Of a stretch of 64,000 bases of DNA, positions 6,383-26,628 are shown piece by piece (within the stretch, counting starts at the first letter, position 1; every line of letters begins with the position of its first letter). This DNA comes from Bacillota bacterium. GTDB lineage: Bacteria; Bacillota; Clostridia; Peptostreptococcales; Anaerovoracaceae. The translations under genes and the position numbers were made by a program. The notes under the pieces are model-generated. The model was not told where the DNA came from. It saw only the letters and a list, made by a program, of their open reading frames with translations, and searched no databases. Location of the stretch: NCBI GenBank assembly GCA_017941085.1, contig JAGAXF010000002.1, positions 1 to 64,000 of the forward strand, given 5' to 3'.

Positions 6383-6520
6383 TTATCGGTATTCCTTCCC
6401 AGTATTTGAATCTATAAAGACTTTCCTTTGTGAATCATATTCTAAATCTGTGCCAACCGGCATATCATATATAGCCAATACCGCCGGTTCTATTTCAACG
6501 AGCATGTCAAAATCAGCAGC
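6383..6520 (-). pseudogene. Truncated remnant of a DUF2185/Imm33 immunity gene
   Basis: The minus strand encodes DFDMLVEIEPAVLAIYDMP, ending in IDSNTGKEYR and a TAA at 6383-6385. This matches the C-terminal 45 residues of the intact DUF2185 gene at 7014-7373 (DFDTLVEIEPAVLAIYDMP...IDSNTGQRIP). The 5' two thirds are missing; homology stops at about 6520, three bases before the stop codon of the neighbouring membrane-protein gene. No start codon or ribosome binding site remains. Confidence 0.8.
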
Positions 6521-6523
6521 AAT

Positions 6524-7013: not shown

Positions 7014-7373
7014 CTACGGAATCCTCTGCCCGGTGTTGCTATCTATGAAGTATCTGCCGGTTTCATCATGACAGAATTCTAAATCCGTACCTACCGGCAT
7101 ATCATATATAGCCAATACCGCTGGTTCTATTTCAACGAGCGTGTCAAAATCGACAACAAGATTGTTCTCCAGTATGTTGATATACTCTTCGGTATCTGTA
7201 TCACCCAAAGCTCTCCATCCATTATCAGCCGGATTAACTGACTCTTCTCTAAAAATCCACTTTAACTTGGATGCGCCTTCATACAGAGATCTCGTAATGA
7301 TGCATCCACCTAAGCTATGTGTTTTCAGCAGTTCTTTCTCATCTGTTTTTTTAACCCTAACAAATAATCCCAT
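7014..7373 (-). CDS. DUF2185 (Imm33-type) immunity protein
   Basis: This is a 119-residue soluble protein. The pattern GGCIITRSLYEGASKLKWIFREESVNPADNGW...GDTDTEEYI (about residues 22-68) is characteristic of DUF2185, a family classed with the polymorphic-toxin immunity proteins (Imm33/Imm-like), where it is predicted to neutralize a cognate toxin by binding. The protein starts MGLFVRVKK, similar to the MGLFDKFKKK start of the DUF4241 and SUFU proteins further along the array. A truncated copy lies at 6383-6520. No toxin gene accompanies it. Confidence 0.75.
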   Translation of the reverse strand: MGLFVRVKKTDEKELLKTHSLGGCIITRSLYEGASKLKWIFREESVNPADNGWRALGDTDTEEYINILENNLVVDFDTLVEIEPAVLAIYDMPVGTDLEFCHDETGRYFIDSNTGQRIP

Positions 7374-13755: not shown

Positions 13756-15207
13756 TTACCGCTCCAAATCCCGCGTTGATCTTCGGGGTGCTTTCTTTTG
13801 TCGGGGCTGTTCTTGCGCTTCCTTTTTAAGCCTTGTCAGTTGTTCCCGAACACTTTTCTTCTCCGGTGCTTTTGGAAGTTTTCGATGTGGTTGCTTTCCC
13901 TCTTTGATGGCAGCCACTTCTTCTTTCCAGTCTTTCAGTTCCTGTTCATATTTCACGACCAGATCCCTTGACCGCTCCAGCGTCCTCATAAAGTTTTGCA
14001 CATCCAGATATCCGGCTTTTCTTACTATTTTGTCGATTGCCTTCTCGTGCTTATCGATCAGCTTTTCTGTTCGCACTATCTGATCATCCAGTTGCTTTCG
14101 TTCTCCGGCCTTGAAGATGCCGGTGGCTTTCTGCCGCTTCATACTCAGATCTGTAAGCGTTGACCTCAACTTATCGGCAGCATCTCTTTCCTTGGTCAGT
14201 GCTTTATAAACCCTGACCATGCCGTTATAGACATCGATATCGATCTTAGGCAACGGTTTAGGAGGCAGCTTTATGCTGTAGATCAGACCTTGCAGTTTCT
14301 CCTTTGCCTTATGAACTATATTTTTGAACAGTCCCGGCAGCCATCCTTCTTTTTTCACGGATTCACTTGCAGCCTTTTGGATATCCTCATGTTTGACCTC
14401 GATGATCTTTTCCTCCGGAACACCGGAGACAAGAGCAACATCCGCAGTCTGATTCCATTCCTGTCTGGCAGCATTGTCCGCCTTGATTTCCGCGGCCTTT
14501 GGATTGTTCTTCCCGATCTTTTTCGTCGGAAGGTATACGCTATCCCCATCGAATACTTTCAGATGATTCTCCGGCTCCTTGATATGGAGATTGATGAGAT
14601 CAGTGTAGAACTCTTTGGCCTCAGCCAGGAATTCTTTCCCCTTGAAACGCGGATCCTTGATCCCGAAAAGATGCTGCTCATAGACTTCACCTTTCTTTAT
14701 AACAGAGCATCCTTTTCGGATGTTTCCTTCGCTGTCTGTGATCTCTTTTTTCGTTCTTACCTTCTTTCCGGTCTCGTCATAAAACATATTTCTCGCTGCG
14801 ATCTTGACCTCCGGTTCCGGCAAACGCTTCCTCTCGGAGAAGATGAGATGGATGTGATAATTGGTCTTGGTTTTGTTGTGGTGAAGTGCCGATATGCACT
14901 CGACTCCGTATTCCTTTTTGAACGCATCCGTGAATTCTTTCAAGACAATTTCGGGATCGTATTCGGTATAGTTTTCCGGAAGAGCGATGATGAGTTCTCT
15001 TGCCTCGATGCATCTTCCTTCAGTTCCGCTTTTTCGGAATTCCCTCTGGTTTTCTTCGGCAAGTTTCTTCCAGTATTCATCATCGACAGGCTCGGCAGTA
15101 TCGTAATACGCATACAGGAATTCCTGCTTTTCTGTGTTTGTGATATAGCCGATCCTGCCTTGAACATCCCTGAGCTTCGTCTCCTGTATGAACGTATGCC
15201 GCGCCAT
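13756..15207 (-). CDS. MobA/MobL-type relaxase of the nested element
   Basis: The protein has 483 residues. The N-terminal relaxase domain (about 1-240) contains the metal-binding histidines in SALHHNKTKTNYHIHLIF (H109, H110, H118, H120) and the preceding LIIALPENY motif of MobA/MobL proteins. This enzyme nicks the origin of transfer and stays attached to the 5' end of the transferred strand. The C-terminal half is highly charged and predicted coiled coil (about 325-460). No coupling protein or transfer ATPase accompanies it, so transfer would depend on a helper conjugation system. The palindromic region just upstream (15208-15617) is the likely oriT. A good ribosome site (AAGGAGGGATCAG) precedes the ATG. 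Confidence 0.85.
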   Translation of the reverse strand: MARHTFIQETKLRDVQGRIGYITNTEKQEFLYAYYDTAEPVDDEYWKKLAEENQREFRKSGTEGRCIEARELIIALPENYTEYDPEIVLKEFTDAFKKEYGVECISALHHNKTKTNYHIHLIFSERKRLPEPEVKIAARNMFYDETGKKVRTKKEITDSEGNIRKGCSVIKKGEVYEQHLFGIKDPRFKGKEFLAEAKEFYTDLINLHIKEPENHLKVFDGDSVYLPTKKIGKNNPKAAEIKADNAARQEWNQTADVALVSGVPEEKIIEVKHEDIQKAASESVKKEGWLPGLFKNIVHKAKEKLQGLIYSIKLPPKPLPKIDIDVYNGMVRVYKALTKERDAADKLRSTLTDLSMKRQKATGIFKAGERKQLDDQIVRTEKLIDKHEKAIDKIVRKAGYLDVQNFMRTLERSRDLVVKYEQELKDWKEEVAAIKEGKQPHRKLPKAPEKKSVREQLTRLKKEAQEQPRQKKAPRRSTRDLER

Positions 15208-15617
15208 CTGATCCCTCCTTTCTGTCTTCGTTTTTCAAGGTGCTGCGATAGGTTCTGTGTAAGGGAAAGCCCTCGTTTTCCCTTATGGTTCTTCTGTGTG
15301 TGGCTCTAAAGGGGAGCGGTTACACACATACGCCCGTATCCGGGCTATGTAAGCGGCGTCCGATCAGATAAGGATTCCGAAGTGCTAAGCGAGGGATTCT
15401 TTTCTGCATGGATGCCGCGCATGATATTTCTGCAAAAGCCGGGGAGGGCTTTGTAGAAATATCATTGATACCGGAAAAGCCGGAAGCATCTGCTTCATGG
15501 CGGCGTTTGACGGTATCTGCCCTCCGCAGGAGCGAAATACACAGAGCATAAAACGAAGTTTTGTGCGATGGGTGTATTTCGCTCTCAAACGGCGAGGCCT
15601 TTTACGATCTTCATTTC
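15208..15617. promoter_or_regulatory. Palindrome-rich non-coding region, probable oriT of the nested element
   Basis: This gene-free region upstream of the relaxase contains at least five inverted repeats. TAAGGGAAA/TTTCCCTTA is at 15260-15285, and an 11-bp arm ATGATATTTCT/AGAAATATCAT with an extended GC-rich inner stem is at 15421-15465. GATACCG/CGGTATC (15467-15517) encloses GAAGCA/TGCTTC, and a perfect 13-bp arm GAGCGAAATACAC/GTGTATTTCGCTC is at 15530-15584. Such density is expected for an origin of transfer, possibly with a single-strand origin. The nick site cannot be named from sequence alone. Confidence 0.6.
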
Positions 15618-15833
15618 CTACACCACACTTTTCACATCGGCTTCTGACATCAGGTTCCTGCCCTGATTGACTTTCAGGAATTCTTCCAGCGTATCTCTTC
15701 GGATGATCGTCTTTCGTCCGACCTTCAGCACTGGGAGCTTTCCCCAGTCAATGAGACGCCTGATCGTATTCCTGCCGATCCCGGAGTACGTTGCCGATTC
15801 ATCGATCGTAAGCCCCATTTTGATCTCAGTCAT
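15618..15833 (-). CDS. AlpA/Xis-type excisionase
   Basis: The protein has 71 residues from the ATG at 15833, which has AAGGAGGTGA directly upstream; an in-frame TTG six codons earlier would overlap that site. The protein is a single winged helix-turn-helix of the excisionase/MerR-like type: MGLTIDESATYSGIGRNTIRRLIDWGKLPVLKVGRKTIIRR spans about residues 6-46, with the typical GR...I.R wing. It would direct the integrase toward excision. It is divergent from the XRE regulator gene and has a consensus promoter. Confidence 0.85.
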   Translation of the reverse strand: MTEIKMGLTIDESATYSGIGRNTIRRLIDWGKLPVLKVGRKTIIRRDTLEEFLKVNQGRNLMSEADVKSVV

Positions 15834-15881
15834 AGATTCACCTCCTTTCAAATAGACTCAATTTGCACCTGTTTCGTGTTT

Positions 15882-15910
15882 ATTATAGTCTCACTGCTAT
15901 TGCTTGTCAA
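15882..15910 (-). promoter_or_regulatory. Consensus promoter of the excisionase gene
   Basis: On the minus strand, TTGACA (15905-15910) and TATAAT (15882-15887) are exactly 17 bp apart, both perfect consensus. It faces away from the XRE promoter, so the 180-bp intergenic region is a divergent control switch for the element. Confidence 0.8.
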
Positions 15911-15963
15911 CTCGTTATAGGTCGTTTTGTGGAATGATCCTGTAATTAAAGACTTATTTTAGG

Positions 15964-15992
15964 TTGAAATTTGTTTCCAACTATGCTATATT
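15964..15992 (+). promoter_or_regulatory. Promoter of the XRE regulator gene
   Basis: TTGAAA (15964-15969) and TATATT (15987-15992) are separated by 17 bp and lie 23 bp before the ATG, with CGGAGGT as ribosome site. The arrangement with the divergent excisionase promoter resembles a phage lysogeny switch. Confidence 0.7.
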
Positions 15993-16014
15993 AAACTCAA
16001 CGGAGGTAGAAACC

Positions 16015-16698
16015 ATGAAAGAAAAGACCGTTTTTACACCTAAGCAGATAGGAGAAAGACTCAGGGAAAGAAGGAAGGAACTGAAGCTCACTCTCCCCAA
16101 AATGGCAGAGAGAATGGGCGTCAATAAGTCCACCATCATACGCTATGAATCCTATGGTGTGGATCCGAAAAAGAACTATCTCATCGTTTCTTTGGCAGAG
16201 GCGCTCCAGACAACACCGGAGTACATAACCGGATTATCGGACGATAAAGAATATGACACCCACACCGTATGTCAGAAGATGCTGGACGAACATGTAAGAG
16301 ATTATCTTTCGGTACTGACATCATCCTCTCTCGGAGAGCCGAGGCAGGAACTCATTACGACTTTCCTTGGAGAACTGATTGATCTCCACGCAGTTTTAGC
16401 AAGACACTTTGCCATAGCAATGGATGAAGCCGACCGGATTGCAGAGGACGAAGGATTAAAAGAATCCATAAAAAGGTACGCCATTGAATCCGGAGACATC
16501 ACGGAAAAAGCCTACCATAACGAAATGGCCGCACCGATTGAGGACATGAAAAAACTTTTGGATCTCATCCTAAAGCTATACGACAAGAACGAAAGAAATG
16601 TCATCGGCAAGATATACGGCATCAAAGCCGAGGCAAGACAAAGACTCGCTGCAAAAGACAGCACATACATAAATCCAGACACACTGGAAGACGATTAA
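16015..16698 (+). CDS. XRE-family regulator of the nested element
   Basis: The protein has 227 residues from the ATG at 16015 (GGAGGT 7 bases upstream). The N-terminal Cro/C1-type DNA-binding domain (about 8-72) includes IGERLRERRKELKLTLPKMAERMGVNKSTIIRYE, of which the recognition helix is MGVNKSTIIRYES. The C-terminal 140 residues are helical and acidic, probably for dimerization or signal sensing; no peptidase motif is seen. It lies between the divergent excisionase and the integrase and probably represses excision. Confidence 0.8.
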   Translation: MKEKTVFTPKQIGERLRERRKELKLTLPKMAERMGVNKSTIIRYESYGVDPKKNYLIVSLAEALQTTPEYITGLSDDKEYDTHTVCQKMLDEHVRDYLSVLTSSSLGEPRQELITTFLGELIDLHAVLARHFAIAMDEADRIAEDEGLKESIKRYAIESGDITEKAYHNEMAAPIEDMKKLLDLILKLYDKNERNVIGKIYGIKAEARQRLAAKDSTYINPDTLEDD

Positions 16699-16817
16699 AC
16701 ACCGTGGCACCTTGAAAAAGACATATCTGACCGATCCAAAAATCGGTTACAATATGTAATATCAACCCTATATCACAGACCCGGTTGCCACGGACAAAGA
16801 AAGGAGAATTATTTACC

Positions 16818-18119
16818 ATGGCAAAAGGATCTGTAAGAAAGAAAGGCAAGAAGTGGTACTATCGCTTCTACGTGGAAAATGAGAGCGGAAAGCTTATGCA
16901 GCGTGAGTTTGTCGGAACCGAAAGCAAAGCGGAAACCGAAGCTATGCTCCGCAAAGCAATGGAGGACTACGAGGCTCAGAAGTTCGTAGCAAAGCCGGAA
17001 AATCTCACCTTGGGAGACATGCTTGACCTCTGGGTAGAGGAAGAATTAAAACCCGGCACTCTCTCCAACGGCACCGTGATGGCCTATCAGGGAACGGTCA
17101 GAAGGATCAAGGCCTACCCCATTGGAGAAAGAAAGCTAAAGAGCATCAAGCCGGAGCATCTGCAGCAGTTCTTCGACCACCTGAGTTTCGGAGGAAAGAA
17201 TCCGGACGGCACCACGCAGCAGCCGATTTCGCGAGGATATATGAGGCTCTTTACGGCGGTGATGCAAAACGCATTCCGTTTCGCAGTATTTCCCAAGAGA
17301 CTCATCGGATTCAATCCTATGCAGTATGTACTATTAAGGGGACAGAAGGACGAAGTGAATCTCTTCTCCGGAAATGAGGAAGACGCCATCACCGTCCCGA
17401 CACTCTCCCATGAGACCTATAAGGAACTCATGAGCTATCTGCAGAAGAAAAAGAATCCGGCGATCCTCCCGATCCAGATCGCCTACTACACCGGGCTCCG
17501 CATCGGAGAGGTTTGCGGCCTTACCTGGCAGGACATCAATCTCGAAGATCAGTATCTCACCGTAAGACGCAGCGTCCGCTACAACTACGAGAGAAAGAAG
17601 CACGAGATCGGCACCACGAAGCGAAAGAAAGTCCGCACGGTAGACTTCTGCGACACGCTGGCGTCCATCTTGAAAGAAGCCAAGATGGAGCAGATGAAAA
17701 ACCGCATGAAATACGGCGTGCTCTATCGCGGGAATTACTACAAGGAAGTCTCGGAAAAAGACCGCATCTACTATGAGCTGTATACGCTCTCCGGAGAAGA
17801 TGACATTCCGGATGACTACAAAGAAATCGACTTCGTTTGTCTCCGGGATGACGGCGCGATCGAGCTTCCGAACACGGTGGCTCTCGTCTGCAGAACGGCA
17901 AAGAAAAAGATACCCGGACTTGAAGACTTCCACTTCCACATGCTGAGACACACCTACACCAGCAACATGCTGAGCGGCGGTGCAGCACCAAAGGATGTGC
18001 AGGAGCTTCTCGGGCACTCGGATGTCAGTACCACGATGAACATCTACGCTCACTCTTCCAGAGAGGCAAAGCGCAACAGTGCAAAGCTTCTCGACAAAGC
18101 AGTCGGCGCGGATGCCTGA
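16818..18119 (+). CDS. int: Tyrosine recombinase/integrase of the nested element
   Basis: The protein has 433 residues from ATG 16818 (AAGGAGAA upstream). It has an N-terminal arm-binding domain (about 1-60, SVRKKGKKWYYRF), a SAM-like core-binding domain (about 70-180) and a C-terminal catalytic domain. Catalytic residues are visible: Arg in YYTGLRIGEVCGL, His-x-x-Arg in HMLRHTYTSN, His in LLGHSDVSTT and the Tyr nucleophile in MNIYAHSS. The length and domain order fit Tn916/ICE-type integrases. It ends 27 bp before the right attachment repeat, the expected position. Confidence 0.9.
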   Translation: MAKGSVRKKGKKWYYRFYVENESGKLMQREFVGTESKAETEAMLRKAMEDYEAQKFVAKPENLTLGDMLDLWVEEELKPGTLSNGTVMAYQGTVRRIKAYPIGERKLKSIKPEHLQQFFDHLSFGGKNPDGTTQQPISRGYMRLFTAVMQNAFRFAVFPKRLIGFNPMQYVLLRGQKDEVNLFSGNEEDAITVPTLSHETYKELMSYLQKKKNPAILPIQIAYYTGLRIGEVCGLTWQDINLEDQYLTVRRSVRYNYERKKHEIGTTKRKKVRTVDFCDTLASILKEAKMEQMKNRMKYGVLYRGNYYKEVSEKDRIYYELYTLSGEDDIPDDYKEIDFVCLRDDGAIELPNTVALVCRTAKKKIPGLEDFHFHMLRHTYTSNMLSGGAAPKDVQELLGHSDVSTTMNIYAHSSREAKRNSAKLLDKAVGADA

Positions 18120-18257: not shown

Positions 18258-19322
18258 CTATACTCCAAATAAATCCGGATTGATTAAAGGGATTATCAAT
18301 TCGCATCTTTCATCATTATTATCATAGCCCCAATAGAATTGATAAAATCCATCACCAAATCCACTTGCGACCATAACTAAACGATGATGCGTGTCCGGGT
18401 TTTCCCATTCAATAAAATCTCCACCTTCTCTTTGATATTGCGGAAGTCTCTCTTCGCTTTCCTTAAACAACTGAGCGAAATAATCATCGTAGTGATTCTT
18501 ATGTTCATTTTCTTGATGCCATTTTTGAAGAAACGCATCATACTCATTAGCGACTTGAACGTCACAGATAGAAAGCATCCCCGCTTCCACCGGAAAACCA
18601 CACGCAACACCATCACTAGCTTTGAAGGCTGCACTTTCCTCTGTCGGTTTCGCAAGCTGATATCTTGTCGCTTTATTCTCTGTGATTTTCAATCTGACTG
18701 CAGCCATGCGTATTCCAAGTTCTTCACTTCTGCATATTGCAACTTCAATCGGATAGCTTCCTGCTTGGATTGTATCTTCTAAAATAGGCGAAAACCTTGG
18801 CATATAAGCAAGAGGATCTCCAATCATGATTTCTCCTGTTGGGCAATCAATAGTTCCTACTGTTAGGAAATATCTTGTCTCAGATTTCTGAAACTGTCTG
18901 TTAATCACATCGGCATCTTTTTCATCCGAAGAAATGTATTTGAGGTTTTCTTCAAAAGCGATTTGAAGACTACTCTTTCCAATTAGGCCTTCTAACTCTT
19001 CAAGTGCCAAAGCTTTGATAAGTATCTCATTCTCATTTTCATCAAGTTTAAATTGATCCAGTTTTGATAAAGCCTCAAAGTAGTCTACATCGCCAATCAC
19101 GCCATCTTTCGTGGTACTCACAAGCATAAGCTTATAGTCTGTTATTTCTTTTCCATCCACCGCCAAACGCGGATCCTTCAACAAAATAGTCTCTGTATCT
19201 TCAGCTAGCGCAAATGCACCAAAAGGATTTCCGTCATCTTTAGCATAAAATTGCGGATTAGCTTTATAAGCATTCTCCCAACCATTTGTTTCTTTTTTCT
19301 TAAACTTGTCAAATAATCCCAT
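18258..19322 (-). CDS. DUF4241 protein, probable immunity protein
   Basis: The protein has 354 residues. The C-terminal region about 165-350 contains DUF4241-type features: GEIMIGDPLAYM, AGSYPIEVAICRSEELGIRMAAVRL and VACGFPVEAGMLSICD. The first ten residues, MGLFDKFKKK, are identical to those of the SUFU protein next to it and encoded by nearly identical bases. DUF4241 proteins are frequent in immunity-gene arrays of Firmicutes and Bacteroides; the biochemical function is not established. Before insertion of the nested element it was directly upstream of the zinc-ribbon gene at 7635. Confidence 0.75.
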   Translation of the reverse strand: MGLFDKFKKKETNGWENAYKANPQFYAKDDGNPFGAFALAEDTETILLKDPRLAVDGKEITDYKLMLVSTTKDGVIGDVDYFEALSKLDQFKLDENENEILIKALALEELEGLIGKSSLQIAFEENLKYISSDEKDADVINRQFQKSETRYFLTVGTIDCPTGEIMIGDPLAYMPRFSPILEDTIQAGSYPIEVAICRSEELGIRMAAVRLKITENKATRYQLAKPTEESAAFKASDGVACGFPVEAGMLSICDVQVANEYDAFLQKWHQENEHKNHYDDYFAQLFKESEERLPQYQREGGDFIEWENPDTHHRLVMVASGFGDGFYQFYWGYDNNDERCELIIPLINPDLFGV

Positions 19323-19337
19323 ATTTACTCTTTTCTA

Positions 19338-20018
19338 TCAAACAATAGATTCGCGATGATAATCCGTAATATCCGAACCGAGTTTTTCATATATCTCCAT
19401 GACAGATCCAACTGTTGAAAGTGTCTTTAGTTCGGCATCAGTCATTCCAATAAGTTCTACAAATTCAACTTTACCATTTAGAGTATCAATTGTTTCTACG
19501 GTAGGATCTTTAATTGTGATAAAGCCGGTTAAATTAGACTTTTGCTTTGCATCGATTCCTGTTGTCTGGCCAGTATAAATGAATTCAAATGGTTGGAAAA
19601 TCTCGTTTTTAGTAAATGTTATTCTTGCAACCATCTGTAAGATTCCACAGATATTTCTAATCTCTGCTTCCTCGTCTTCGTAATCATCCTTCTTTAATTT
19701 GAATGTTAATTCATAGCCATAACCACTGATTTCTTTAACATCACTTTCTTTTTCATAGATTTCTGTTTGGCCAAAAGAAACAAAGTGCCAGTAATTCCCT
19801 CCATCATATACACTAATGCCGTCTAAAGGATCGTTACCGCCAAATATCCATCGAATAATTGTTCCATAGTGTTTTGGATTTGTCTGGCCTGGATAAACCC
19901 TTAGGAATTCTTGTTCAATTGCCTCCCAACCAATCGCTTCAACTTCTTTTTCTTCAGGTTTACCAGTTGCTTCTTCTTGAGTTGTACCTTTTTTCTTAAA
20001 CTTATCAAATAATCCCAT
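19338..20018 (-). CDS. Suppressor-of-fused (SUFU) domain immunity protein
   Basis: The protein has 226 residues. The SUFU domain (about 35-215) is recognised by PLDGISVYDGGNYWHFVSFG, TEIYEKE and SGYGYELTFKLK. Bacterial SUFU domains are a widespread immunity family for polymorphic toxins and were predicted to neutralize toxins of several nuclease folds. It starts with MGLFDKFKKK and a Glu/Thr-rich linker, like the adjacent DUF4241 protein. The gene is 9 bp from the PH-like gene upstream and 15 bp from DUF4241 downstream, indicating one transcript. No cognate toxin gene is present. Confidence 0.85.
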   Translation of the reverse strand: MGLFDKFKKKGTTQEEATGKPEEKEVEAIGWEAIEQEFLRVYPGQTNPKHYGTIIRWIFGGNDPLDGISVYDGGNYWHFVSFGQTEIYEKESDVKEISGYGYELTFKLKKDDYEDEEAEIRNICGILQMVARITFTKNEIFQPFEFIYTGQTTGIDAKQKSNLTGFITIKDPTVETIDTLNGKVEFVELIGMTDAELKTLSTVGSVMEIYEKLGSDITDYHRESIV

Positions 20019-20026
20019 AATACTCT

Positions 20027-20533
20027 TTACCTCTTATTCTTAAATAAAGCTCCTGACAGACCGCCTGGCTGAGATATTGCTGCTCTTCGTTTTGCTTTTT
20101 CAACAATGTCACTCTTTTCAAGCAGTTGTTTCTTTATCAAAAGATCAAGCAACTGTGTGTAGCCATCATAGGAAAAAATTGCACTTCCAACTTTCTGTCC
20201 ATTCGCATAGATTTTGCACCGGTACTGACTGTCATATAACAATCTGGCCTTGGTGATTTCATCCCAAGAGTAGGTTTTGCTTATACCAAAGACGTTCCTT
20301 GAGACAACTCCATGGCTATCAAAATCCATCTTCACATTCTTGTAAATGATTGTTGGAATCAAGCCAACAGCAATAGGCAGTCCACAACATGTCATAAGAG
20401 CTTCAAGAGTGTCATCATGACTTGATGCATATGATGTAACAATAATCAATACGAAAAAAGATATCGCTAAAATATAGAATATTAATGCTATTTTCATATA
20501 GCCTTTTCCAGGCTTTACAATAAGTTTATCCAT
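20027..20533 (-). CDS. Two-TM protein with PH-like domain, paralog of 1995-2471
   Basis: The protein has 168 residues with TM segments at about 13-34 and 45-65 and a C-terminal domain with GVVSRNVFGISKTYSWDEITKA. The same layout and the YSWDxIT motif occur in the protein at 1995-2471, so the two are paralogs at opposite ends of the array. The family resembles DUF6560/bacterial PH-like membrane proteins that recur in immunity clusters. The tail (KRRAAISQPGGLSGALFKNKR) is basic. Role inferred from context. Confidence 0.6.
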   Translation of the reverse strand: MDKLIVKPGKGYMKIALIFYILAISFFVLIIVTSYASSHDDTLEALMTCCGLPIAVGLIPTIIYKNVKMDFDSHGVVSRNVFGISKTYSWDEITKARLLYDSQYRCKIYANGQKVGSAIFSYDGYTQLLDLLIKKQLLEKSDIVEKAKRRAAISQPGGLSGALFKNKR

Positions 20534-20745: not shown

Positions 20746-22236
20746 TTACATGTTTTTCATCTTATATCTTCTGTTCGTCGTATTTCCAATTGCCTCTACT
20801 TCATCCATTGAAGAAATAATAGCTCTAGCTCTAGACTCACTCAACGAAAGCATTTCTGCAATTTCTGATGTTTTACACTCCCCATTTTTCTTAAGGTAGG
20901 CCTTAATACGTTCTTCATTTTCTTCCGTCTTACTTCGCTTGTTTTCTTCGCTTGTTTTCTTCGCTTGTTTTCTTCGCTTGTTTTCTTCGCTTGTTTTCTT
21001 CGCTTGTTTTCCGAAAACCAGCGTCAGCCTCGTCCTATCAGGATTATCCTCTTCTTCCAGTAATGGTTCTGCCCAGCCTTCATCACTCCAAACATTAAAT
21101 ATGTTGGGGACACCACTTCCGGATCGCTCACCAATATCTAGCAGATTAAACATCTTAAGAATAGTCTTATTTCTTGGATCAGAAACACCGCCTTTTTTCA
21201 TCTGAATCTTTCCTGTCCTAATATATCCAGGATTCTCAAGTATGAGTTCAGTCGGAGTTTTTCGTATTACAACACCACGAACTCCAAAGTAATCTGCATT
21301 AGATAAGCAGTTAACCAATGCCTCACGTACGGCTTTGTGGATAGGAGTATCATCAACTCTCATGATGCCTTCCTGCTTAAATGGAACTTTAAGTCCTATT
21401 GCAATTTTGCTGTAAACCCTGAGGAAGAAATCAAACACATTGCCGGACCAAGTTCCGGAGGTTGACCACAGTCTATCTGTCCATCTTATGCTCGGATCTA
21501 ATTTCTCTTGGTAGTCTAAAAAATACTCAGGGAACTCTCTTACAATATCAAAGTCGTTTCCGAACATCAGAAGACCCGCAGTAGTGGGATGAAGCTCACC
21601 ATCTTCTTTGCTCACTCCTGCCGCACCTATACTACGCAAGTATTCTTCATCGGTAAGTCTTGAAAAAGGATGTTTATCTGATGCATTTTGATGCATGTTG
21701 CGATAACCTTGAACAGTATCCTGATTAAGGTCAGAGAGAGGCATCCAATCTACAATCTTCATATCGGATGTGTCTTCGGTTTGATCTCTAAGCATCGCAA
21801 GCACTTGGGCCTTAGTACAACGGTAGTCACCTTCAAAGTTTCTTTTGTATGTGTATTTGAACATATCGTTCTTGATGTACACAGGTCTATCCTGTCTATT
21901 AGCCCTTGGGACTTCTATCACAATTATTGTATCTCCATCAACATTGTGGATTGCAACATCTGAATCTTTAAGAAGATTAAGGCTCACCATATCCTCGTTA
22001 TTTACAAGATCCCAAAATTCTTTTATAAGCTTCTCAGGATGTTTTAGGCCAGTCGTCGCCCACGTGCCATCTTCGTTTTCTTCTACACCAAGAATGATCA
22101 CTCCTCCATCTGTGTTTGCGAAGGATGAGTAACTTTCCCAAAGAGATTTGGGAAGACCTCCATTGGCCTTCTTAACCTCTCGTCTATTATCTTCTTTATA
22201 TTTATCAAACTTTGTTAAGTCAAAATTCTTTGACAT
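20746..22236 (-). CDS. AlbA_2 (Schlafen-type) ATP-binding regulator with repeat-containing linker
   Basis: The protein has 496 residues from ATG 22236 (GGAGG 8 bases upstream). The N-terminal AlbA_2/Schlafen-like domain (about 10-130) includes ESYSSFANTDGGVIILGVEE. The middle HATPase_c_4-type region (about 250-390) contains KAVREALVNCLSNADYF and GERSGSGVPNIF. Residues about 410-440 are the repetitive linker KQAKKTSEENKR, encoded by six 13-bp repeats. The last 60 residues are a winged helix (KTSEIAEMLSLSESRARAII). Proteins of this kind are found near mobile elements and defense genes, but their biochemical role is poorly defined. Confidence 0.8.
   Translation of the reverse strand: MSKNFDLTKFDKYKEDNRREVKKANGGLPKSLWESYSSFANTDGGVIILGVEENEDGTWATTGLKHPEKLIKEFWDLVNNEDMVSLNLLKDSDVAIHNVDGDTIIVIEVPRANRQDRPVYIKNDMFKYTYKRNFEGDYRCTKAQVLAMLRDQTEDTSDMKIVDWMPLSDLNQDTVQGYRNMHQNASDKHPFSRLTDEEYLRSIGAAGVSKEDGELHPTTAGLLMFGNDFDIVREFPEYFLDYQEKLDPSIRWTDRLWSTSGTWSGNVFDFFLRVYSKIAIGLKVPFKQEGIMRVDDTPIHKAVREALVNCLSNADYFGVRGVVIRKTPTELILENPGYIRTGKIQMKKGGVSDPRNKTILKMFNLLDIGERSGSGVPNIFNVWSDEGWAEPLLEEEDNPDRTRLTLVFGKQAKKTSEENKRRKQAKKTSEENKRSKTEENEERIKAYLKKNGECKTSEIAEMLSLSESRARAIISSMDEVEAIGNTTNRRYKMKNM
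20933..21010 (-). repeat. Six perfect 13-bp tandem repeats inside the AlbA_2 gene
   Basis: The unit CTTCGCTTGTTTT is repeated six times without any mismatch. Because 13 is not a multiple of three, the repeat is read in all three frames, and three units give the 13-residue protein repeat. Gain or loss of one unit would shift the frame before the C-terminal winged helix. Confidence 0.95.
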
Positions 22237-22266: not shown

Positions 22267-22926
22267 TTACTTTTTCTCTTCATCCCAAGGAATATCTATT
22301 TCCACTCTCGAATGATTGTCATCAAAGATAGTAGCAACATCATCTTCGTCAAAACCTGCAAATGCCGGGAATTTCATTTTCCAGGCTCTATATGTATCTA
22401 TGTCGATTTTTCCATTCATTAAATCTTCCCTTGCGTCATACCATGCCATAACTCTGTTCTCAAGATCAAGGGCTGCCCCTGGCGCCGGGATTTCATTCTC
22501 AATTAATTCCTTAAGTTCTTGCTGCTTCTTCTTGGACAGTTTAGGTAGTTTATCATCCGGCGCAAAGGGATCGTCACCTACCAACTCTCTTAATCTATCT
22601 GTGTTAAACCTAAGAACTATTTCACCATCCATAAGCTCCGGTCTAAGAGCATAAAGCTCCTCCATCTCAAACAGTATATGCAGAACCTGATTCGTCGCAC
22701 TTATCCAAGGCATCTTTAGAGCAAAGACACTTACCTTTAGAGCATCTGCAATGTCACTTAGGATTTCGAGAGATGGCGTCCTGTTATCGAGTTCATAGTT
22801 CCGAACTGTAGATTCATTAAGTCCTACCATCTCGGCAAGCTCCTTTTGAGTGAGCCCAGCTGCCTTTCTAAAAAACCTTATTCTTTTACCTAGACCAAAT
22901 TCTAAGAGTAGCTCTCTAGTATCCAT
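22267..22926 (-). CDS. XRE-family repressor of the mobilization region
   Basis: The protein has 219 residues from ATG 22926 (GGAGG 7 bases upstream). The Cro/C1-type helix-turn-helix (about 12-66) contains AGLTQKELAEMVGLNESTVRNYELDNRTPSLEIL; the recognition part is VGLNESTVRNYE. The C-terminal region is helical and acidic. It is divergent from the mobC-relaxase-integrase unit, and three copies of a 14-bp operator-like sequence are found in the shared intergenic region. It probably keeps mobilization silent and regulates itself. The start chosen removes a weaker upstream in-frame extension. Confidence 0.8.
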   Translation of the reverse strand: MDTRELLLEFGLGKRIRFFRKAAGLTQKELAEMVGLNESTVRNYELDNRTPSLEILSDIADALKVSVFALKMPWISATNQVLHILFEMEELYALRPELMDGEIVLRFNTDRLRELVGDDPFAPDDKLPKLSKKKQQELKELIENEIPAPGAALDLENRVMAWYDAREDLMNGKIDIDTYRAWKMKFPAFAGFDEDDVATIFDDNHSRVEIDIPWDEEKK

Positions 22927-23291: not shown

Positions 23292-23651
23292 ATGAGGACA
23301 AGAAATGTAGGAATTAACATCCGAGTTTCGGAAAAAGAAAAAGAAAAAATAGCAAGAAACGCCAAAAAAACCAAGCTAAGCATTTCGGAATATCTTAGAA
23401 AACTTGCAGTCGGACATAAGCCAAAGGAACTTCCGTCAGAAGAAATTCAAACTGAGCTTATCAAGATGAAGGAAATAATTATGCTCTTGGATTATCAAAC
23501 CAAGATGTTTTCCGGAGATGAACTTAAGGCTGCGGTCATAAAAACAGTAGATGATATTGGAGCAAGTCTCTTTAATGTTCAAAGGCTTATGCTTCATCAA
23601 AAACCTGCTAAGAATAATACAACCAAGGAGACTTTAGATGGCGACAACTAA
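23292..23651 (+). CDS. mobC: Mobilization protein MobC
   Basis: The protein has 119 residues with a ribbon-helix-helix N-terminus (about 5-40: GINIRVSEKEKEKIARNAKKTKLSISEYLRKLAVG; key strand NIRVS, helix SISEYLRKLA) as in MobC accessory proteins. These bind oriT and help the relaxase nick DNA. A C-terminal helical part carries a LLDYQTKMF motif. AGGAACAAA precedes the ATG. The gene overlaps the relaxase start by 14 bp, indicating translational coupling. Confidence 0.85.
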   Translation: MRTRNVGINIRVSEKEKEKIARNAKKTKLSISEYLRKLAVGHKPKELPSEEIQTELIKMKEIIMLLDYQTKMFSGDELKAAVIKTVDDIGASLFNVQRLMLHQKPAKNNTTKETLDGDN

Positions 23652-25017
23652 AATATGGACAGTTAAAGATAGTCTAAAAAGATTAACAGACTATGCATCT
23701 AACCCAGAGAAAACTGAGTACTCCGACCTAAGAAACTCCATCGAGTATGCTGTGAGATCCGAAAAAACTGCAACTTTTTCTAATGATATTCAGGAAAAAT
23801 TCTTCTTTGTTTCGGGTATAAATTGTAATCCTGAAACAGCTTCTAACGAAATGAATGAAGTAAAAGAGTTATTTGGGAAGACCGGAGGCAATCTTGCCTA
23901 TCACTGCTACCAAAGCTTTAAGCCCGGAGAAGTAACTCCAGAGTTATGTCACCAGTTAGGAGTGGAACTTGCCAGAAGAATGTGGGGAGATAAATATCAG
24001 GTACTTGTTGCTACTCAGCTTGACAAGAACCATCTTCACAATCATATAATCGTGAATTCTGTCTCCTTTGTTGACGGAAAGAAGTATAACTGTAACAAAA
24101 ATGCTTATTGGAAACTAAGAGAAACCTCAGACAAAATCTGCTTAGAAAACAATCTTTCGGTAATAGAATCACCAAAGGCTCCTACTCCAAGAGCAATATA
24201 CTTTGCTGAAAAAGCCGGTGAACCTACCAAGTACAACTTAATGAGAGAAGCGATTGACGATGCCATCTCTATGTCTACCAATTACGCTATGTTTCAAGCA
24301 GTGTTGAACCGAAAGGGATATCAAATTCTTAATCCTAACCGGAAGTATCCCGTCATAAAATCCATTAACGCCAAAAGAGGAACACGGTTTTTTCGCCTGG
24401 GAGAGGATTACACTCCTGAAAGAATAATGGATAGAATTAGAGAAAATGATAGCAGAGTCAAAGGTATTTACTATAGTTATATGTATCCCGAGCCTAAGTG
24501 GAAAAAGAAAATATATGTTCCGGTAAGCACTACTAGAAGAAAAACGAAAAAAATTGGAGGCCTATACGGCCTATATCTTCACTATTGCTACCTATTAGGA
24601 GTCTTACCTAAAAGGAATAACTATAGGCCTCTCTCCCCTGAACTTAGAGAAGATCTAAGAAAAGCAGAGAAGTATTCTGAACAAGTAAGATTAATGTGTA
24701 GAGAAAATATTAAAACTACTGAAGATGCAAACATATTCATAGACAAAACATCCGTGAAGATTAAAGACCTTACTGATGAAAGAAGAAAAATATATAACAA
24801 ACTTAGAAGATGTAAAGATCCCGAAGAGATAAAAAACCTAAAACAAAATCGGGATGCTATAACAAAAGAACTCGTTGCACTTAGAAAAGATAATAATAAC
24901 GCCAAGGATTTACTGGAAAGAAGTCTCGATGTAAAACGCAACGTCGAGATTGAAAGAAGGTTCCAGCATCCTGAAAGATATCGCGAAAGAGTAAGAGAAA
25001 GAGGGTTGGCGCGATAA
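23638..25017 (+). CDS. MOBP-type relaxase (relaxase/mobilization nuclease)
   Basis: The protein has 459 residues. The N-terminal domain has the relaxase motifs: a probable catalytic Tyr19 in RLTDYASNPEKT, a motif with FVSGINCNPETA, and the three-His metal site in DKNHLHNHIIVNS (H132, H134, H136). The C-terminal half is basic and contains a coiled-coil segment (about 370-430). It nicks oriT and pilots the strand during transfer. It overlaps mobC by 14 bp. No coupling protein or VirB-like genes exist in the element, so transfer depends on a helper. Confidence 0.9.
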   Translation: MATTKIWTVKDSLKRLTDYASNPEKTEYSDLRNSIEYAVRSEKTATFSNDIQEKFFFVSGINCNPETASNEMNEVKELFGKTGGNLAYHCYQSFKPGEVTPELCHQLGVELARRMWGDKYQVLVATQLDKNHLHNHIIVNSVSFVDGKKYNCNKNAYWKLRETSDKICLENNLSVIESPKAPTPRAIYFAEKAGEPTKYNLMREAIDDAISMSTNYAMFQAVLNRKGYQILNPNRKYPVIKSINAKRGTRFFRLGEDYTPERIMDRIRENDSRVKGIYYSYMYPEPKWKKKIYVPVSTTRRKTKKIGGLYGLYLHYCYLLGVLPKRNNYRPLSPELREDLRKAEKYSEQVRLMCRENIKTTEDANIFIDKTSVKIKDLTDERRKIYNKLRRCKDPEEIKNLKQNRDAITKELVALRKDNNNAKDLLERSLDVKRNVEIERRFQHPERYRERVRERGLAR

Positions 25018-25071
25018 GCTACTGGATAAAAATCCTTGGACATAACTCCACAAATGAAAGGATGTGCCAAA

Positions 25072-26349
25072 GTGGCAAAAGATAAAGACATAAAACTTAA
25101 TACTGCCTCTTTGGCTTCCTTCTCACCGGAGGAAATGTTGTCCTATCTCCAAGAGAATGGTAAGATAGATTTGGGCGATGTGTCCAACGAGATGCAAAAC
25201 ACAAGGAGGAAGCAGTTATTAGCAAAGCACAATTACAAGATATATCGAGGTAAAGATGGTCGTTGGCGGACTTACATAAAGGATGATTCCCTTTCCAGCG
25301 GAAGAAAACTTCTCGTCAAAACTTCGAAATGGGAGCTTGAAGATGCTGTTTGCGATTACTATCTTTCAAAAGAAGAAGAATACGTAAACTCATCAATCAA
25401 TATGGAGGAACTTTATCCGGAATGGATAGAGTATAAAAGGCTTAGAGTCTCCCCTCGCACAGTAGATTCCTACGGCTATGCTTGGGACAAATACTATAAA
25501 GGTGAAGAGATTACTAAAATGCCAATCCGAAATATAGATAAGCTCACATTGGATGATTGGATACACAAGAAGATTCACGACTATGATATGACGGCTCACT
25601 CTTATACAAACTTTAGAGCAGTAGTAAATCAGATGCTCCAATATGCTGTAGACCGTGGAATCATTGATCACAGTGTATCAGATGATGTAAGAGTTGATAG
25701 AAGAAGAGTTCTGAAACCCGAGGTAAAGAAGCCGGACCGCACTCAAGTATATAGTCCGGAAGAACAAAAGAAACTTTTCAAGGTCGCATGGGATTACTTT
25801 AATAACGATAAACATTTAGTTCAAAAGCTCGTGCCCCTTGCGGTAATGTTCATGTTTTTAACCGGGCTTAGAGTTGGTGAAGTCTCCGCAATCCGCTACG
25901 AGGATGTTAGAGGAAATAGACTTAATGTCAGTCGTTTCTTCAGAACCAAATGTAACGAAATAGTTGACCACACAAAGGGAAACTTCGGAGCAAGAAATGT
26001 GATTCTTGTACCTCAGGCAATCGAACTTATCGAGACAGCAAAGAAGTACCAGAATGATCACAATATGCCGTCAGATGGATATATCTTTTCAATCAATGAC
26101 TTGCCGGCAAAATACGAGGCTATTCAGAAGGCCTTTGTGAAATACTGTAAAGCTGCTAAAATCCCGGTTAAGAGTTCTCACAAAGCACGCAAAACATATA
26201 TCTCTACTTTGATTGACAGCCAGGTAAACATCAATACCATCTGTCAGCAAGTAGGTCATAAGGATCCGCGAACTACATATAGAAGCTATTGCTATGATCG
26301 TAGTTCAAGCGACGAAATTTATGATGCAATATGTGATGCACTGGGCTGA
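25072..26349 (+). CDS. int: Tyrosine recombinase/integrase of the outer element
   Basis: The protein has 425 residues if translation begins at GTG 25072 (AAAGGA 9 bases upstream); earlier in-frame starts at 25036 (TTG) or 25054 (ATG) lack ribosome sites. The N-terminal arm-binding region (about 50-110), core-binding domain (about 125-215) and catalytic domain are evident. Catalytic Arg is in LTGLRVGEVSAI, the second Arg in SSHKARKTYI (a K-x-x-R-type box), and His is in QVGHKDPRTT. The nucleophile is one of the tyrosines of TYRSYCYDR. It is 247 bp from attR, the standard place for the recombinase of such an element. Confidence 0.9.
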   Translation: MAKDKDIKLNTASLASFSPEEMLSYLQENGKIDLGDVSNEMQNTRRKQLLAKHNYKIYRGKDGRWRTYIKDDSLSSGRKLLVKTSKWELEDAVCDYYLSKEEEYVNSSINMEELYPEWIEYKRLRVSPRTVDSYGYAWDKYYKGEEITKMPIRNIDKLTLDDWIHKKIHDYDMTAHSYTNFRAVVNQMLQYAVDRGIIDHSVSDDVRVDRRRVLKPEVKKPDRTQVYSPEEQKKLFKVAWDYFNNDKHLVQKLVPLAVMFMFLTGLRVGEVSAIRYEDVRGNRLNVSRFFRTKCNEIVDHTKGNFGARNVILVPQAIELIETAKKYQNDHNMPSDGYIFSINDLPAKYEAIQKAFVKYCKAAKIPVKSSHKARKTYISTLIDSQVNINTICQQVGHKDPRTTYRSYCYDRSSSDEIYDAICDALG

Positions 26350-26541: not shown

Positions 26542-26595
26542 ATAAAAAGATCATTGGCATTATATCACGACGGCTTAAACACAATCAAGAAAAAA

Positions 26596-26628
26596 TAATA
26601 AATTCCCATTCTTTCCCTATACTGTTAT
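26596..26628 (+). repeat. attR: right 33-bp attachment repeat
   Basis: It is identical to 147-179. The last 12 bases contain the stop codon and final codons of the MerR-type gene, so integration here leaves that gene intact. This copy marks the junction with the chromosome. Confidence 0.85.

Follow-up and report, generated by a model that had tools for sequence, protein, structure and literature searches.

We propose that a tandem 13-bp array lying inside an AlbA_2-type gene is likely a set of intragenic binding sites (iterons) for the winged helix encoded by the same gene, through which the gene probably controls itself. The array is found in a window of 64,000 nucleotides, the whole stretch of DNA analysed here. 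Repeats of this kind recur across reading frames family-wide, and the repeated word covaries with the residues of the winged helix predicted to contact DNA; from these sequence patterns we infer that the winged helix binds its own array.

The gene occupies 20746–22236 on the minus strand (ATG at 22236, stop at 20746–20748) and encodes a protein of 496 aa, which was characterised from its ORF by Pfam, AF2 (mean pLDDT 87.7) and Foldseek. Its assignment to AlbA_2 in the initial annotation was confirmed by an SLFN_AlbA_2 match in the ORF containing the array (PF04326, residues 15–139, 21820–22194, minus strand; E 4e-11, 43.8 bits against a cut-off of 25.3), together with a sequence match to PDB 2KYY. 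This is followed by a GHKL-like HATPase_c_4 domain, also termed 'RecG C-terminal' (PF13749, residues 331–398, 21043–21246, minus strand; E 8e-9, 35.8 bits against a cut-off of 26), which is further supported by Foldseek, whose matches to the AF2 model include catalytic domains of histidine kinases. A C-terminal winged helix spans about residues 438–493 (20758–20925, minus strand), where a FaeA-like Pfam match lies at the cut-off and the AF2 model contains helices and wing strands at 429–493. Within it, the predicted recognition helix comprises residues 467–475 (including S468, R469 and A472; 20812–20838, minus strand; AF2 and mutual information) and the predicted wing residues 484–489 (including T486; 20770–20787, minus strand), between AF2 strands 480–483 and 490–493. 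The best Foldseek match of the model is 3LMM, DIP2311 of Corynebacterium diphtheriae (E 2e-20). No RepA_N or other initiator domain was matched by Pfam in the window protein.

Immediately N-terminal to the winged helix, residues 409–434 are encoded by six perfect 13-bp units (20933–21010, minus strand; sense-strand unit AAAACAAGCGAAG). The initial annotation had described this repeat as perfect, and so it proved: TRF reports 20933–21011 with period 13, 6.1 copies, 100% matches and 0% indels, the longest lag-13 match run in the window is 66 bases compared to a maximum of 10 in 30 Markov-1 shuffles, and the unit (allowing at most one mismatch) has 6 matches in the window where 0.18 would be expected. 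Residues 413–433, between HATPase_c_4 and the winged helix, form a linker with pLDDT < 50 in the AF2 model. The candidate binding word of the array is CAAGCGAA, which recurs every 13 bp, each successive unit falling in the next reading frame; the candidate sites are thus arranged in tandem within the linker-coding part of the gene. In a simulation of AAAACAAGCGAAG unit number, only 0, 3, 6, 9 and 12 units left the winged helix in frame, in agreement with the earlier claim that slippage by a single unit changes the frame. Of the simulated protein forms proposed there as a check, that with 6 units retains the winged helix, while those with 5 units (460 aa) and 7 units (439 aa) lose it.

Relatives were collected by a scan of genome contigs, which yielded at least 503 confirmed candidates and at least 80 homologues with 43–63% identity, and others were added by further searches. 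All 74 members of the alignment carry both SLFN_AlbA_2 and HATPase_c_4. Most relatives have linker repeats at the equivalent position, although the words differ between genes and include GGCGATAAAA, CAAGCGATAAA, GTAGCGAT, GTGACGAT, ACTACCCAG, GTACCCA and TGTCGTAG. In 62/79 loci a gene-specific word is iterated in the linker DNA, usually with a period of 13–14 bp and in two or three frames, so that CAAGCGATAAA is translated as both SSDK and QAIN in L066, and ACTACCCAG as both TTQ and NYP in L095. Linker repeats are absent from some members (e.g. L099, L101, L103), and the Salmonella query protein has a linker without repeats. Averaged over the 79 loci, linker self-match at lags of 13, 14 and 27 is 0.46, 0.43 and 0.49 respectively; codon shuffling lowers these values to approximately 0.31, and the core gives 0.25. 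The same loci contain 2,023 pairs of identical 8-mers in different frames, compared to 43 after synonymous recoding, an excess for which selection on the protein alone does not account.

The spacing of the words follows the stop codons that they could create. Among 50 loci with CGAT words, none of 215 words lies in the stop-making phase, while the other two phases hold 111 and 104; neighbouring words are most often 13 bp (66 cases) or 14 bp (61 cases) apart. Since CGAT followed by AA yields a TAA stop in one phase, CGAT arrays alternate between 13 and 14 bp and use two frames only. The array in the window can be uniformly 13 bp and occupy three frames because its CGAAG word is stop-free in every frame, and it is only in the window and L034, both with stop-free words, that all three phases are occupied.

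The words track the winged helix rather than the rest of the protein. With core identity removed, similarity of the word correlates with identity of the winged helix (partial r 0.51, p 0.001), part of which reflects co-inheritance, since the loci share ancestry and the linker adjoins the winged helix. With the winged helix removed, the correlation between word and core is absent (partial r -0.005), and the word correlates with recognition helix plus wing after controlling for the core and for the remainder of the winged helix (partial r 0.55). The Bifidobacterium loci L063 and L078 illustrate this, having cores that are 94% identical, winged helices that are 43% identical and unrelated words.

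In order to resolve this by residue and base we used 49 loci whose helix is R-type and whose word has the form NNNN[C/T]GA[T/A]. Among about 55 residues, the highest mutual information with each variable base was found for residue 473 (base 0), 472 (base 1), 468 (bases 2 and 3) and 486 (base 7), all of which lie within the AF2-predicted recognition helix or wing, and the order of residues along helix and wing parallels the order of bases along the word. The corresponding two-by-two counts are 23/0/3/23 for residue 472 (acidic/other) against C/other, 34/2/0/11 for residue 468 (S or A/T) against G/other, and 44/0/0/5 for residue 486 (N/T) against base 7 (T/A), with p 4e-4 or better once relatives are collapsed into cluster-word units; the rules behind these tables were in part spotted by eye before tabulation. 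Four loci fetched after the pattern was first noticed (L118, L119, L120 and L133) agree with them, and in the window S468, A472 and T486 together with CAAGCGAA obey all three. The same changes can be followed between sister genes: from L033 to L037 (94% core identity) D472V is accompanied by C to T and N486T by T to A, from L052 to L107 (96% core identity) R472A by T to A, and from L059 to L074 (93%) S468T by G to C. Beyond the close relatives, in a distant subfamily retrieved with L007 as query, nearest neighbours by contact residues share words above chance (p = 0.0002), and one of its members, L155, has an R.RA helix, a T wing and the word CAAGCGAA. In a group of Lachnospiraceae (L038, L040, L041, L042 and L098), the words are TGGCGAT or CGGCGAT in some and GCGCTGAT in others, changing with residue 468 (S versus T). 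These five loci also have a downstream gene in common, which in L038 encodes an EF-G-like protein with an NYN/YacP domain.

The presence of the word in two or three frames, and its tracking of the winged-helix residues predicted to contact DNA, together argue for a role at the level of DNA for which slippage does not account. In its neutral form, slippage would be promoted by A-runs in a lysine-rich linker and selection would do nothing but purge frame-shifted products. The linkers are indeed A-rich and disordered (pLDDT < 50), tandem arrays occur in many loci, and cross-frame repeats would arise by this route without any DNA function. However, L048, L066 and L096 contain dispersed copies of their words in several different frames. 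In addition, it is the winged helix, not the core, that the word tracks, and the residue-base rules are valid both between sisters and between subfamilies. We thus consider neutral slippage improbable as the origin of the pattern.

A second possibility, put forward in the initial annotation, is that the array is a phase-variable contingency locus in which 13-bp slippage shifts the winged helix into or out of frame, switching the regulator ON and OFF. As in simple-sequence-repeat contingency loci, the ORF contains a tandem repeat of perfect copies whose unit is not a multiple of three, so that a change in unit number (to 5 or 7) shifts the frame and truncates the protein. We judged this question on relatives across species, with one genome per species. 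In 92 of 97 relatives with linkers of this kind the reading frame continues into a tail of > 55 aa, a count that is somewhat biased because the survey ranks by full-length matches and thereby favours intact frames, while free slippage would leave approximately one third in frame. Frame-shifted alleles exist but are rare, being confined to five loci (L109, L111, L121, L132 and L141), in two of which (L111 and L132) another frame encodes an intact winged helix; OFF states are thus not common among related alleles. Linker length is unchanged in each of seven pairs with ≥ 92% core nucleotide identity, and more distant relatives do differ in array length, but by in-frame amounts only (e.g. 27 bp in L068/L077). 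The alternation of 13 and 14 bp in most arrays also preserves the frame, and switching leaves unexplained why the unit sequence follows residues 468, 472 and 486. In the same-genus genome G008 the gene is reduced to a 52-aa remnant with two units. E. coli was considered as a population test and rejected, as its core is 67% identical and is found in only 8/5,426 genomes. ON/OFF switching as the purpose of the array is therefore unsupported by the relatives, and we regard it as an unlikely explanation, although the locus may switch occasionally.

If the array is instead a set of sites for the encoded protein, the recognition helix and wing would read CAAGCGAA within it, and the flexible linker would accept any site-encoded peptide provided that its total length remained in frame. 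Site and reader, lying side by side, would change together. The product would bind its own coding DNA and so limit its own expression, by road-block or repression; alternatively, binding may serve to mark copies of the same gene. A road-block could also act on downstream genes of the same strand, which here are SUFU and DUF4241 genes.

Little outside the linker presents itself as a target. Copies of the words in promoters or flanks were considered as targets and rejected, since the words hardly occur beyond the linker, whether in promoters or elsewhere. Across 4-kb flanks there are 58 overlapping 10-mer word matches compared to 16.4 expected, which are scattered and not at gene starts, and the window accounts for none of them. 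Elsewhere in the window's own genome we found two one-mismatch matches, the same number as for a reversed control pattern, and no further array. Promoter autoregulation of the classic type is therefore not visible, and no target other than the gene itself is evident. No conserved partner gene was found among the relatives, the largest shared neighbour occurring in 5 loci, and the HTH_3 (XRE-type, by Pfam) gene directly upstream on the same strand in the window (22267–22926, minus strand) is not a conserved partner. With the gene as the only evident target and no conserved neighbour, self-control is the most economical function.

Beside the gene lies a run of genes (18258–20533) with SUFU and DUF4241 domains and a weak DUF6560 match, which was labelled an immunity array in the initial annotation and whose members are putative immunity genes. 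The adjacent DUF4241 and SUFU genes (18258–20018) have a common N-terminal MGLFDKFKKK despite their different domains, and this shared leader is also seen as a nucleotide repeat (D4). On the other side of this run, a MobA/MobL relaxase, an excisionase-like ORF, an HTH regulator and a second phage-type integrase (13756–18119), adjoining the SUFU/DUF4241 genes, look like another small mobilizable element. An 84-nt direct repeat, 90% identical, is present at 6439–6522 and 7076–7159, 637 bp apart.

The AlbA_2 gene itself is probably carried by an integrative mobilizable element, as a 39-bp direct repeat (97% identical; 141–179 and 26590–26628) brackets a 26.4-kb segment containing a relaxase (23638–25017) and an integrase (25036–26349), and the two copies are probable attL and attR. 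In G008 a similar 39-bp site with 3 mismatches lies about 1.9 kb from the gene remnant. With a relaxase/integrase module next to the gene and possible att repeats on either side, the protein might be taken for an initiator or copy-control factor of the mobile element, with the array as its origin. Homologues occur in satellite phages, and the layout equals that of the RepA_N initiator gene of plasmid pSK41, in which four Rep boxes inside rep, in DNA encoding a dispensable linker, are read by the winged helix of the initiator (PMC5703833). However, the window protein is without RepA_N or any other initiator domain, and the relatives adjoin unrelated genes, some lying between or beside type I restriction genes, so that a replication origin seems a doubtful interpretation of the array. 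Plasmid and phage relatives all have < 60% identity, and neither relatives nor repeat words were found in viral contigs. Among the AlbA_2 genes inside type I restriction loci are those of L063, L069 and L078 (Bifidobacterium) and of L115, from Pseudoalteromonas plasmid pMEGA, where the gene lies between the S and R subunit genes.

It is very improbable that the word acts in mRNA, with the protein binding its own transcript. In favour of this reading, every word is in the transcribed sense, the superfamily to which AlbA_2 belongs binds nucleic acids and AlbA_2 families are often called RNA-binding, and an inverted copy occurs upstream of the array in the window (with one mismatch), L052, L057, L071, L107 and others. 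Against it, the words covary with the winged helix, which as a fold normally reads double-stranded DNA, and not with the AlbA_2-containing core, and the inverted copy, rejected as a general hairpin, has a mean rank of 30.6 of 78.

We thus still prefer to read the array as binding sites for the winged helix that the gene itself encodes, and among known systems the RepA_N initiators have the nearest layout, having in common tandem sites in their own linker-coding sequence. In pSK41 binding by the encoded winged helix is known, while here it is inferred from covariation, and in the pPR9 chimera reader and origin were swapped together (PMC5703833); several other plasmids also have origins inside their rep genes (PMC3155836). 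The window gene is not filed under RepA_N, as that domain is absent; its winged helix is C-terminal rather than N-terminal, its core consists of AlbA_2 and a GHKL-type ATPase, and the chromosomal neighbours of the family are varied, unlike those of RepA_N initiators. The array is more likely a variant of the intragenic-iteron idea, new in a different and widespread family.

Other comparisons are less close. EcoR124-type HsdS proteins contain spacer repeats of approximately 12 bp between protein domains, which act through the length of the protein spacer. The likeness lies in the inter-domain position of the repeats and in the type I restriction loci that some AlbA_2 relatives occupy, but the AlbA_2 family linkers differ in carrying the same DNA word in several frames. 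Contingency loci likewise differ from the window gene, whose relatives are almost all in frame and whose unit sequence follows the DNA-reading residues. By fold the best match is to COG2865-type or DIP2311-like proteins (3LMM), with SLFN_AlbA_2 and HATPase_c_4 in common. The literature searched contained no study of function or linker repeats for DIP2311-like proteins and no description of linker repeats or DNA sites for the family; as most subscription papers lay outside this search, novelty is provisional.

Extending the proposal from the window to the family, we think it reasonably probable that these AlbA_2/GHKL/winged-helix proteins, a large and widespread family, are self-addressed, each gene carrying a cross-frame array of its own sites, with reader and site diversifying as one cassette of private specificity per allele (serving incompatibility-like or insulated self-control) that is readable by a simple residue-base code. 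If this is true, a common family that is annotated publicly as 'RNA-binding domain-containing protein', and on whose function the literature searched contained no study, would gain a DNA target, and repetitive linker peptides such as KKAAIKSGD, SSDK/QAIN and TTQK/NYPE would be by-products of DNA sites. The family would then offer a natural library in which each winged helix is paired with its site, so that rules of recognition for this fold would be testable at scale, and would provide a clear case of coding DNA with a second job, its words being written in two or three frames.
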